64,000 bases of DNA from Daejeonella sp. (GTDB taxonomy: Bacteria; Bacteroidota; Bacteroidia; Sphingobacteriales; Sphingobacteriaceae): positions 62,001-126,000 of the forward strand of contig NZ_JAUYSS010000032.1 of assembly GCF_030695525.1 (NCBI RefSeq). The letters are read 5' to 3'. Shown here one piece after another: positions 47,662 to 64,000 of this stretch. The translations under genes were made by a program, and so were the position numbers. The notes beneath the pieces were generated by a model. That model saw only the letters and a list, made by a program, of their open reading frames with translations. It was not told the DNA's origin and ran no database searches. Every line of letters begins with the position of its first letter. Position 1 is the stretch's first letter.

Positions 47662-47692
47662 TTGTAGTTTTATGTGCTAATATTAAATTTGC
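47662..47692 (+). promoter_or_regulatory. Promoter of the cobalamin-riboswitch transcript
   Basis: TTTG (47662-47665), a 19-base spacer, then TAAATTTG (47685-47692): an exact Bacteroidota promoter. Transcription would begin near 47696, a few bases before the riboswitch. Confidence 0.8.
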
Positions 47693-47698
47693 AATGCT

Positions 47699-47866
47699 TT
47701 AGGTTTCCGAAATCAAAATCGGAATTAAAAGGGAACCGGGTTAGAATCCCGGACAGTCCCGCTGCTGTGTTCTCCATAACGGTTCCATAATAAGCCACTT
47801 TTCGCCATATGCGGATGGGAAGGCAGGATAAACCGGGAGTAAGTCAGAAGACCTGCCTCTGCATAA
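47699..47866 (+). promoter_or_regulatory. Cobalamin (B12) riboswitch
   Basis: The core matches the cobalamin riboswitch: AAAAGGGAACCGGGTTAGAA, then CCGGACAGTCCCGCTGCTGT, GCCACTTTTCG, and AAGTCAGAAGACCTGCCTCTG near 47840-47862. The GGGAA...ACAGTCCCGC and AGTCAGAAGACC boxes are diagnostic. It binds adenosyl- or other cobalamins and shuts off expression when B12 is plentiful. The following GGGGATTGAAGC region before the btuB start is the likely expression platform. Right edge approximate. Confidence 0.95.
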
Positions 47867-47977
47867 TAATTCATAGCTTTCGGGGATTGAAGCTTGGAGA
47901 GGACTATTCGCAAGAATAGATTCATTTCTGGTATTCCTTCATTATCTGTTTGCTGTGGGACAAAAACTCACAACAAA

Positions 47978-49876
47978 ATGAAAACAAAAAAACTTTACGT
48001 TGGGCTAAGTCTGGGACTTGCACAACTGGTATTGCTGAACAGCAGTACCCTGGCACAGGAAAGACCTGCGTCAAATCTCGATGAAGTGGTGGTAGTGGCC
48101 AGCCGTTCACCCAAAAAATTATCGGAAATAGGGAAGGTGGTTCGGGTAATCACTGCAGAAACGATTTCAAAAAGTCAGGGTAGGACTTTGCCCGAACTGT
48201 TAAACAATGTGGCCGGCTTGACAATAGGAGGAAATGGAGGAAATCCTGCTGATATTAAGGCTGTGTATCTCCGTGGTGCAAGTGCTGCCAATACCCTGAT
48301 ACTGATTGATGGTATTCCTGTAAATGATGCATCAGAAATATCCGGAGAATACAATATTTCGGCCATTGGGATTGAAAATATTGAGCGCATTGAAATTTTA
48401 AAGGGAGGAAATTCTACATTATATGGTTCTGATGCAGTAGCAGGCGTTATTAATGTGATTACCAGAAAAGGCAGCGGCAAATTAGCAGCAAATCTTCTGG
48501 CTACCGGAGGGAGTTACGGAACTTATAAACAAGTTTTAGGTTTGAGCGGACAAATCGAAAATACATCTTTATCATTCAATGCCTCTAATCTGGATTCAAA
48601 GAATTTCTCTTCAGCAATGCCTGCTAATGCTGAATCAGGTTTTGATAAGGATGGATTCCATCAGAAATCCATGATGTTTAATATGGGGCAGCGGGTAAGC
48701 AAAAACTTTCTGTTAAGAGGGAACTTTCAGGCTAACAATAATGCCGCCGACCTCGATAATGGTGCATTTGCTGATGCAAAGGACTATACCTATAGCAAAT
48801 CTTCATTTCTGGCCGGAATTGGGGGGAAGCTGGATCTAAATAAAGCTGTTCTCAATTTCAATCTAAGCCAGAATAACCTGAAAAATAAATATAATAATCA
48901 GGGTTCACTTACCAATAATACAGGGAATATTACGCATCTGGAAACTAACCTCAATTATGCTTTCAATAATTTTATAGATGTGGCAAGTGGCATTTCATAC
49001 AGGAATCTTAGTACTGATCAGAGAAATCCATTTAGTTCAAGATTATTTGCAGACAATAATATAAAAAGTCTGTTCAGCTCTCTTTTTATTAAATCAAAAT
49101 TGGGCTTTCAGGCAGAGATTGGTGGTCGATTTAATGATCATAGTGAATACGGCAGTAACTTTACCTATACTATAAATCCATCCTACCTCATTGCAGACCG
49201 TTATAAGGTATTTGCAAACCTTTCATCTGCTTACAGAGTGCCATCCCTGTATCAGTTGTTTTCAGAATACGGGAATTTGGCTCTTAGTCCTGAAACATCC
49301 AGAACTTATGAAGCAGGTTTTGATCTGAATTTTACACCGCAAATAAATCTATCCCTTTCTTATTTTAAGAGGGATATTGAAAATGTAATTGATTTTGGTC
49401 AGGTTTCTCCTGGTAAATTTGGTTACTTAAATCAAAATAAACAAAATGATAAAGGTTATGAAGTTGAACTAAGCTATAAACCAAATGGATTACTGAATCT
49501 GAATGCTTTCTATGCTTATGTAGATGGGGAGGTGACTACTCCGGCAGGCACATCTTTTAATCTCTTCCGTAGGCCAAAGAATTCTTTCGGATTGAATGCG
49601 GGTCTTGATTTAAGTAAATCCCTAAGCTTTAATCTGATCTATAAGTTTACTGGCGACAGAAGAGACAGATATTTTGATGGTAAGACTTTCAAAACGGTGG
49701 ACGCTGAACTGGGTTCATTTAATGTGCTGGATGTTTATGCGCAATACAAAGTTTCAACCAGACTTAGCTTGTTTACAGATGTTAAGAATGTGCTGGATGA
49801 GAATTATGTCGAATTTGCAGGCTATCAAACAAAAGGGATTAATTTTAATGCTGGATTTAAGTTAGATATCCGATAA
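47978..49876 (+). CDS. btuB: TonB-dependent receptor, BtuB-like (cobalamin uptake)
   Basis: About 632 residues. I chose the ATG at 47978, which begins a signal peptide (MKTKKLYVGLSLGLAQLVLL); the frame opens earlier, inside the riboswitch region. DEVVVVASRSPKKLSEIGK (about residues 34-52) contains the TonB box region, followed by the plug (LPELLNNVAGLTIGGNGG; ERIEILKGGNSTLYGSDAVAG) and a 22-strand barrel ending INFNAGFKLDIR. The cobalamin riboswitch directly upstream makes it the outer-membrane B12 receptor. Energy comes from TonB/ExbBD in the inner membrane. Confidence 0.95.
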   Translation: MKTKKLYVGLSLGLAQLVLLNSSTLAQERPASNLDEVVVVASRSPKKLSEIGKVVRVITAETISKSQGRTLPELLNNVAGLTIGGNGGNPADIKAVYLRGASAANTLILIDGIPVNDASEISGEYNISAIGIENIERIEILKGGNSTLYGSDAVAGVINVITRKGSGKLAANLLATGGSYGTYKQVLGLSGQIENTSLSFNASNLDSKNFSSAMPANAESGFDKDGFHQKSMMFNMGQRVSKNFLLRGNFQANNNAADLDNGAFADAKDYTYSKSSFLAGIGGKLDLNKAVLNFNLSQNNLKNKYNNQGSLTNNTGNITHLETNLNYAFNNFIDVASGISYRNLSTDQRNPFSSRLFADNNIKSLFSSLFIKSKLGFQAEIGGRFNDHSEYGSNFTYTINPSYLIADRYKVFANLSSAYRVPSLYQLFSEYGNLALSPETSRTYEAGFDLNFTPQINLSLSYFKRDIENVIDFGQVSPGKFGYLNQNKQNDKGYEVELSYKPNGLLNLNAFYAYVDGEVTTPAGTSFNLFRRPKNSFGLNAGLDLSKSLSFNLIYKFTGDRRDRYFDGKTFKTVDAELGSFNVLDVYAQYKVSTRLSLFTDVKNVLDENYVEFAGYQTKGINFNAGFKLDIR

Positions 49877-62625: not shown

Positions 62626-63027
62626 ATGAAGAAATTTTTCAATGTTTCGTTTGCACTCATGTGCTTAGTTTTAATACCCTCATGCAGTACTGGTCCTCTG
62701 AAAGGAACCTGGCAGTATGATGGAGGGGTTTATGACGGCAGATCCCAAAAAGCCTCTACTGAGTTTCAAATGCAAAGAATCTATAACGCTGATACTTATG
62801 AAGCATTTATGCTCGAAGGCAACAATCCTCCGGAATTATATAATTCAGGTATTTATGAGATAAAAGGTGATAGTTTATTCATTACCAGTAAGTTCAGTAG
62901 CAGACCCTCCCAAAATACCGATGTGACTATCGCCTATAAATTTGCAATTGATATTGATAAACTCACTATCAATGGTGTTTTACCTAATGGAATGATTGTC
63001 GAGGAATATTGGAAAAGGATTAAATAG
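62626..63027 (+). CDS. Lipocalin-like hypothetical lipoprotein
   Basis: A 133-residue predicted lipoprotein (signal with lipobox VLIPSC at about residue 20). The mature region is all-beta with GTWQYDGGVYDG and a final strand MIVEEYWKRIK, resembling the lipocalin-like DUF4488 group. It lies 14 bases after hemF, so it is probably in the same transcript. Function unknown; haem or lipid binding is possible. Confidence 0.8.
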   Translation: MKKFFNVSFALMCLVLIPSCSTGPLKGTWQYDGGVYDGRSQKASTEFQMQRIYNADTYEAFMLEGNNPPELYNSGIYEIKGDSLFITSKFSSRPSQNTDVTIAYKFAIDIDKLTINGVLPNGMIVEEYWKRIK

Positions 63028-63087
63028 TTTCTCAAATCCTTATACCCTGCATTTTCACATATTATTGTAAAATTGCTGTATTAATTA

Positions 63088-63120
63088 TTTTGTTTAAATT
63101 TTTTATCATAAATTTAAACA
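63088..63120 (+). promoter_or_regulatory. MerR/CarH-type promoter-operator
   Basis: TGTTTAAATTT (63091-63101) and AAATTTAAACA (63110-63120) form perfect 11-bp arms with an 8-base spacer. The right arm ends at the base before the ATG. TTTG (63089-63092) and TAAATTTA (63109-63116, a 7/8 -7 box) would make a promoter with a 16-base spacer whose -7 box lies four bases before the ATG. The operator fills the spacer, the typical arrangement for MerR/CarH autoregulation. Confidence 0.7.
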
Positions 63121-64000
63121 ATGAATTTGTTTTCTATTTCACAACTGTCCCAATTTTCAGGAATCAAAGCCCATACAATCAGAATATGGGAGCAGAGATA
63201 TAATGCCTTAAAGCCTGAGCGTTCAGAAGGAAATACCCGGTATTATGACGATATACAGTTAAGACGTTTACTAAATATTGTTAGTCTCATGGAACAAGGG
63301 CATAAAGTTTCCCAATTATGTTCCATGAGTGATGAAACTTTATTCTCAATGATTCATGATTCCGGAAGAATCGATTCAGGTGAAACCGCAGAATACTATA
63401 TAAATCAGTTAATTGCTGCCGGGATGTCTTTTGATTCCGGCCATTTTGAACATATTCTTTCTTTAAGTTTTTCGGCCTATGGAATTAGAGACACTTATAA
63501 AACAGTAATATATCCCTTAATGAATCGGATAGGTTTACTTTGGGCGAGTGATATCCTGCCTACTACCAGTGAACATTTTATCAGCAATATATTTCATCAA
63601 AAATTATCGGCAGCTATCGATTCATTGCCTTTGCCTGATTCAACAAAGAAAACCTGGTTACTTTTCCTTCCTGAAAATGAATTTCATGAATTACCATTAT
63701 TATATGCTAATTTTTTAATCAGGCTTTCAGGCCATAAAGTGATTTATCTGGGAAGTAATGTCCCTGTAAAATCCTTGAAATCGCCTATTATAGATACCAG
63801 ACCAGATTATTTATTGATGTTCCTGATTCATTTTGATCTGCCTGAACAGATTCAAAAAGATATCGAAGGTATAAATGAGTACTTTACAGGTGATAAAATA
63901 TTTCTTGCTGGTAATCATAAATTGATAACCAGCATAAAATATCCTCAGAATGCAGAATACCTGTCTTCAGTGGTAGATATTGAAAGAATACTAGGATTGA
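63121..64000 (+). CDS. MerR-family regulator with B12-binding domain, CarH-like (partial)
   Basis: Starts at the ATG 63121 and runs off the window after 293 codons; the visible end may be close to the stop. N-terminal MerR helix-turn-helix: FSGIKAHTIRIWEQRYNALK and PERSEGNTRYYDDIQLRRLL. The middle has the CarH cobalamin-cap motif W-x9-E-H in GLLWASDILPTTSEHF. The Rossmann-like B12 domain has ENEFHELPLLYANFL, where His is the lower axial ligand; the usual Gly of ExHxxG is Pro. CarH binds adenosylcobalamin and represses in the dark; light breaks it. Carotenoid genes often follow in Bacteroidota, here beyond the window. Confidence 0.9.
   Translation, partial: MNLFSISQLSQFSGIKAHTIRIWEQRYNALKPERSEGNTRYYDDIQLRRLLNIVSLMEQGHKVSQLCSMSDETLFSMIHDSGRIDSGETAEYYINQLIAAGMSFDSGHFEHILSLSFSAYGIRDTYKTVIYPLMNRIGLLWASDILPTTSEHFISNIFHQKLSAAIDSLPLPDSTKKTWLLFLPENEFHELPLLYANFLIRLSGHKVIYLGSNVPVKSLKSPIIDTRPDYLLMFLIHFDLPEQIQKDIEGINEYFTGDKIFLAGNHKLITSIKYPQNAEYLSSVVDIERILGL

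Follow-up and report, generated by a model that had tools for sequence, protein, structure and literature searches.

A CarH-like regulator gene with a probable symmetric operator at its start codon, at the head of a carotenoid and photolyase operon in Bacteroidota

Background

B12 photoreceptors have been described from Thermus, Bacillus, myxobacteria and Chloracidobacterium, and in the form of the photocobilins (excerpts of PMC9304148 and PMC11796333). According to passages of PMC9304148, the CarH operator consists of tandem 11-bp direct repeats of the form nnnnTnnACAn, and CarA has been suggested to read direct repeats too, rather than the palindromes once proposed. The same passages give the B12 motif as D/ExHx2G/P x41 SxT/V x22-27 GG, and describe the B12-independent CarA of Myxococcus xanthus as a repressor of crt genes that is without the Trp of Wx9EH and keeps the classic B12 motif. 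For CtMerR of Chloracidobacterium thermophilum, the signature of light-responsive cobalamin binding is composed of GxxW, EH, GxxH and GxxxP, with the contact of the GxxH Gly made by the main chain (sections of PMC11796333). The class II LitR proteins of Pseudomonas combine a MerR domain with a helical bundle, keep only this four-helix bundle of the B12-binding region, and have photolyase genes among their light-induced targets (sections of PMC9758184).

Within the literature that we searched, which took in few subscription papers and no bioRxiv preprints, no study was found that deals with CarH in Bacteroidota or with its operator. Two papers, PMC8123684 and PMC7435645, contain both 'CarH' and 'Bacteroidetes'. 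In Chryseobacterium lacus, as reported in extracts of PMC7064467, light induces carotenoids in the absence of car and lit genes, and the phylum may thus have light switches of other kinds.

Data and sampling

The window is the whole stretch of 64,000 nucleotides that was analysed (G000:C6:62001-126000), part of a genome of 4.2 Mb in 73 contigs. Homologues of its CarH-like gene were taken from two sources: 30 family loci and 20 overlapping regions, drawn from 104 matches in 98 of 251 family genomes, and the best 80 of 577 named relatives. The matches comprise 135 loci with 111 distinct proteins, one of which is from Thermus, leaving 110 distinct Bacteroidota loci; near relatives are over-represented among the sampled loci, which are not independent of each other. 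Residue counts are based on 109 full-length rows; two rows are partial, L055 being without its N-terminal part and L145 being cut by a contig end. In the phylogeny of the homologues, inferred with FastTree and used only for counts, the branch leading to Thermus is very long, and at one point long branches join each other.

The inverted dyad described below was searched for as TGTYTA...TARACA in the 100 bp that precede carH, the gap being free to vary from 14 to 24. For a control we took 30 family genomes in which carH gave no match at E <= 1e-20; 21 of these have crtB, and the crtB regions read represent 20 of 23 matches, from 18 carH-less genomes.

Results

The CarH-like gene lies on the forward strand at the end of the window (63121..64000; L002:2121-3032) and encodes a MerR DNA-binding domain, a helical B12 domain and a Rossmann-like domain. 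The full protein has 303 amino acids, and the window ends at residue 293, with the last 10 residues beyond it. On the contig beyond the window, the stop codon of carH overlaps the ATG of crtI, and the operon runs in the order carH-crtI-crtB-small secreted protein-idi-type Nudix-SRPBCC-SDR-photolyase, with gyrA next; the names of the genes 3' of carH are our reading of the sequences, profile searches having been made on five window ORFs only. The initial annotation had anticipated carotenoid genes and a sigma factor gene past the window's edge. The former are there, crtI and crtB following carH directly, but the ORFs of L002, the locus extending past the window, include none that we recognised as a sigma factor gene. 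L002 has no match in Rfam at the gathering threshold, and the genome holds no second carH homologue, the next match having an E value of 0.6. Linkage to carotenoid genes is common in this group, since crtI and/or crtB occur in the flanks of 97 of the 110 distinct relatives (a set that includes the best 80 of 577 named relatives).

A sigma-factor-like ORF does lie between carH and crtI in Algoriphagus (L125, 10876-11605, identified by reading the sequence, without a profile search) and likewise in other Algoriphagus and Pontibacter loci, where up to three dyads are found in the gap before it.

At the start of carH the window carries a perfect, strandless inverted repeat of 32 bp in total, with a left arm at 63090-63101 (half-site TGTTTA, 63091-63096), a spacer of 8 bp at 63102-63109, and a right arm at 63110-63121 (half-site TAAACA, 63115-63120) that is kept in relatives; the dyad has the form TGTTTA-N18-TAAACA. 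Read directly from the window, the arms are perfect reverse complements of 12 bp each, so that a perfect repeat with an 8-base spacer was correctly recognised at the outset, while the arm length of 11 bp given then has to be amended. The repeat reaches the ATG, as first stated, the twelfth base of the right arm being the A of the start codon at 63121. The window contains 8 perfect inverted repeats with arms of at least 11 and spacers of at most 20, against an average of 0.55 over 20 first-order Markov shuffles. Because seven further repeats of this kind exist in the window, the repeat alone is no proof of an operator, though the class as such exceeds chance. These seven are found at window positions 428, 20746, 25477, 26234, 38651, 47462 and 49895, with arms of 11-16 bp, and part of them may be terminators.

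Among relatives the dyad occurs within 100 bp before carH in 69 of the 110 distinct Bacteroidota loci (best 80 of 577 named relatives included), with half-site starts 24 bp apart in 60 of these and 25 bp apart in 9. Of the other 41 loci, 26 carry the dyad within -3000 to +4500 of the carH start, mostly just 3' of carH, and the dyads of Algoriphagus and Pontibacter are of this kind. Both arrangements coexist in six loci (L051, L079, L081, L090, L099 and L119), in which a second strict dyad lies just 3' of carH in addition to the upstream one. Near carH and the crt genes, a gap of 18 is found 105 times, a gap of 19 is found 11 times, and all remaining gaps from 8 to 30 together are found 3 times; elsewhere in those loci there are 8 instances with gaps of 18-19 and 16 with other gaps. 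The dyad is present in 91 of 97 crt-linked loci versus 4 of 13 others, again in a set including the best 80 of 577 named relatives. By these criteria 15 of the 110 loci are without a dyad, and the six of them that are crt-linked (L040, L046, L048, L055, L073 and L082) count against a strict rule; on visual inspection, L046, L048 and L073 show a weakened dyad at the corresponding position. Taken as a conserved sequence element, the dyad is very likely an operator.

It is very improbable that the repeat works instead as an RNA hairpin over the start codon, in translation control or attenuation. The repeat does abut the start codon in many loci, and its arms change together in some relatives, the half-site pair being T-A in 57, C-G in 10 and mixed in 2 of the 69 loci. 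However, the spacing is fixed at 24-25 bp, copies also lie behind carH before the crt genes (those in Algoriphagus being in the gap before the sigma-like gene), and the promoter boxes described below, found at one position in 18 and at another in 17 of the 69 loci, would place the RNA start within the dyad. We rejected half-site covariation as proof of function, as the tree holds only 4 state changes and 2-3 independent pairs; with so few changes, it decides nothing on an RNA hairpin either.

The initial annotation also placed a promoter across the repeat. The letters are present (TTTG at 63089-63092 and TAAATTTA at 63109-63116) and may form one. From the pattern in relatives, a tentative -7 element, TTATTTTG (63085..63092, forward strand), overlaps the left arm with one mismatch to TAnnTTTG, which we take to be the -7 promoter consensus. 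Perfect TAnnTTTG boxes start 6 bases before the left half-site in 18 of the 69 loci and 8 bases after the left half-site start in 17 of the 69 (best 80 of 577 named relatives included), against a background mean of 0.5 per offset; the first of these positions is not independent evidence, because the box there overlaps the conserved half-site. With either position the transcription start would fall under the dyad, in keeping with repression. The same layout, a dyad overlapping a promoter, is also in keeping with a MerR activator, and the DNA-binding domain here is of the MerR type. We nevertheless regard it as improbable that the protein is an activator bound between promoter elements, since boxes at or in the dyad would have the dyad reach over the transcription start, and since the CarH proteins studied so far are repressors (passages of PMC9304148).

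To see what becomes of the dyad where carH is missing, we turn to the control genomes. In the 20 carH-less crtB regions, the dyad with a gap of 18 is found in none, and that with a gap of 19 in one, about 2.8 kb from crtB. A genome of the window's own genus, G092, keeps the same upstream neighbours and the crtI-to-photolyase operon (L210, G092:C8:170000-178000); in it, carH and the dyad are both missing from the interval that separates the lipocalin-like gene from crtI, and this locus is a natural loss. The near absence of the dyad without carH (1 of 20), together with its being missing in G092, indicates that the dyad goes with carH and not with the crt genes as such. Comparing 95 of 110 with 1 of 20 by Fisher's test gives p = 1e-12, a value not to be taken at face value because the rows are related and the compared stretches are unequal in length. 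These patterns also argue against the dyad being the site of another crt regulator, with the CarH-like protein acting elsewhere or through that regulator. Such an arrangement would fit Thermus, where the gene for a further regulator, ldrP, comes after carH, and the Algoriphagus cluster with its sigma-like gene; yet no further regulator was recognised in the window's operon, the half-site fits the CarH core TnnACA, and we consider this explanation highly unlikely.

In L055, from a congener of the window's organism (G124:C14), the homologue match starts at about residue 117; the DNA-binding part and the dyad are missing, and the crt operon is intact.

The agreement with TnnACA extends to both forms of the half-site, TAAACA and TAGACA, and Thermus thermophilus CarH shares this half-site as well as neighbouring crtB and photolyase genes. 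The geometry of the operator is different: an inverted dyad at 24 bp in the window, and three tandem 11-bp repeats in Thermus thermophilus. A tandem direct-repeat pair is not found in window 63000-63125 and is found in 2 of the 69 relatives, whereas the Thermus control gives all three repeats.

A search for the operator over the window's whole genome returned one site with no mismatches. At 3 mismatches there were 8 sites, and the reversed control pattern gave 6. Summed over 20 relatives, 39 sites had at most 2 mismatches, versus 20 for the control pattern; in 12 regions around some of the extra sites, none of crtI, crtB, idi, SRPBCC, SDR, photolyase and carH was matched. In view of these counts and regions we claim no wider regulon.

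Turning to the protein, the 293 residues within the window match the Pfam domains MerR_1, MerR and the helical B12-binding_2 above cut-off (PF13411 at 2.8e-15); the Rossmann B12-binding domain stays below cut-off (16.3 vs 32.1 bits), and the NCBIfam CarH equivalog NF052513 is not reached (68.5 bits, cut-off 400). The recognition motif RIWEQRY is one residue off the RxWERRY that appears in passages of PMC9304148. In Foldseek, a structure model built from 13 aligned relatives (mean pLDDT 87.7) has 5c8d and 5c8e, which are Thermus CarH, as its top matches. The model aligns across residues 88-293, that is, over both halves with the Rossmann half included. Against the B12 domains of CtMerR and TtCarH, its C-terminal part has a Z score of about 18, compared with 14.8 against methionine synthase; the highest value, 18.2, is to CtMerR (8jbs/8jbt), tied with TtCarH entries. 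The protein is accordingly modelled, and predicted, to have the CarH fold. It shares domain order and predicted fold with Thermus thermophilus CarH/LitR (class I LitR), together with W-x9-EH, the axial His and GxxxP, although identity in structural alignments is 18-19 %.

Aligned to Thermus thermophilus CarH, the protein keeps W-x9-E-H (W141, E151 and H152) and the axial histidine (H189), both of which had been picked out from the sequence at the start, as well as GxxW (G138/W141), EH (E151-H152) and GxxxP (G211/P215). The Gly of ExHxxG is indeed Pro (E187-x-H189-x-x-P192), as the initial annotation had it, but this is no departure from the motif and no warning sign, since D/ExHx2G/P as given in the part of PMC9304148 cited above allows Pro. 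On the alignment, the real departure from CarH is in SxT/V and GG and not in this Gly-to-Pro change: Phe234-Leu-Ile236 stands in place of SxT/V, and Ala263-Gly264 in place of GG. The Gly of GxxH is replaced by Asn186, which separates the protein from both Thermus thermophilus CarH and CtMerR, the GxxW, EH and GxxxP of the latter being kept. The residue after the Trp is Ala, where Thermus thermophilus CarH has His; CtMerR, with Arg, has no His at this position either.

All 69 dyad-bearing rows, from the set with the best 80 of 577 named relatives, have the Trp and the axial His; the Glu is found in 67 and the His of EH in 68. Phe replaces the Ser of SxT/V in 66 of these 69 rows, and Ala or Ser replaces the first Gly of GG in 65, which argues that the changed motif is not the decay of a single gene; the Gly of GxxH is mostly Asp or Asn. 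Full-length rows that have no upstream dyad number 40; at the Ser position 19 of them carry Val and 14 carry Phe. With the upper-ligand and axial site intact, a substitution that is itself conserved would suggest a rebuilt pocket more than a dead pocket.

The same substitutions, at SxT/V, GG and GxxH, would also be expected if the protein bound the dyad and controlled the operon without cobalamin, answering a partner protein or another ligand in the manner of Myxococcus CarA or class II LitR, and B12-independent relatives do exist (portions of PMC9304148 and PMC9758184). We think this unlikely. CarA has the same architecture, but the window protein is its reverse in the motifs, with W141 present, and the Trp that CarA lacks is found in all dyad-bearing rows, as is the axial His; the Rossmann half, absent from class II LitR, is present in the model. 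Moreover, a PduO-type adenosyltransferase is encoded in 95 of the 98 family genomes with a homologue versus 91 of the 153 without, a comparison uncorrected for kinship. This co-occurrence is suggestive; the homologue is found without a match for the enzyme in G023, G043 and G148. The window's genome encodes a PduO-type adenosyltransferase, and three other B12-binding proteins above cut-off.

Discussion

We consider it likely that this gene encodes a CarH-like repressor that controls itself and the photoprotection operon from carH to the photolyase gene by an adenosylcobalamin/light mechanism. In the dark, the protein would hold a cofactor, probably adenosylcobalamin, between W141/E151/H152 and the axial H189, and the cofactor-bound protein, as a symmetric dimer or larger oligomer, would sit on TGTTTA-N18-TAAACA. 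As the dyad overlaps the promoter region and the start codon, transcription would be blocked. Light would break the Co-C bond, the protein would leave the DNA, and the pigment and DNA-repair genes would be made. We infer that this protein binds this dyad, and that it represses rather than activates, from the features summarised here, and the cofactor, the oligomer and the response to light are put forward in the same sense.

Counting for this reading are the fixed-spacing dyad at carH and the crt genes, its tie to carH, the gene order, the predicted fold, the conserved upper-ligand and axial residues, the fit of the half-site to TnnACA, and the adenosyltransferase, cobalamin riboswitches and further B12-domain proteins of the genome. 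Counting against it are the loss of SxT/V and GG, the low scores for the CarH model and the Rossmann domain, the inverted dyad, the 15 of 110 loci without a dyad, and the three family genomes that have a homologue but no match to a PduO-type adenosyltransferase. The initial proposal of a CarH-like regulator is supported by the predicted CarH fold, the conserved residues and the crt linkage, and that of autoregulation follows from the very likely operator at carH's own start. We would describe the Bacteroidota variant as a putative CarH-like repressor and not file it as a member of CarH, because it differs in the second half of the B12 motif, in the Gly of GxxH and in operator geometry.

A bolder and more tentative idea, doubtful as it stands, is that in this Bacteroidota branch the nucleotide-tail pocket was rebuilt around the conserved Phe and accommodates a cobamide whose lower base is different or missing, or else another tetrapyrrole, and that the protein reads its DNA as a single symmetric dyad, with 24 bp between half-site starts, in place of tandem direct repeats. 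With its tail half altered, the B12 motif raises the question of what a CarH-type sensor requires for holding its cofactor, and a symmetric operator would add another DNA-binding geometry, with possible optogenetic use. The dyad can also serve as a search motif for probable light-controlled promoters across Bacteroidota, a phylum rich in pigmented bacteria.

Five homologues from the same family (L056, L057, L060, L061 and L062) form one clade, without the dyad and without crtI or crtB in the examined flanks; this clade may serve another target.

Directly 5' of carH, at window 62626-63027, lies a gene for a small lipocalin-like lipoprotein (Pfam 20.5 bits, cut-off 22.4). In Chryseobacterium lacus, light induces a gene for a lipocalin-family lipoprotein adjoining the crt genes (extracts of PMC7064467); the likeness may be a coincidence.

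The genome has two cobalamin riboswitches, one of them within the window on the forward strand (47683..47874, converted from contig coordinates). Behind it, on the same strand, is an ORF like those of TonB-dependent receptors (47894..49876, named by reading its sequence), which is a probable corrinoid uptake gene; the pair (window 47683-49876) lies about 13 kb upstream of carH.
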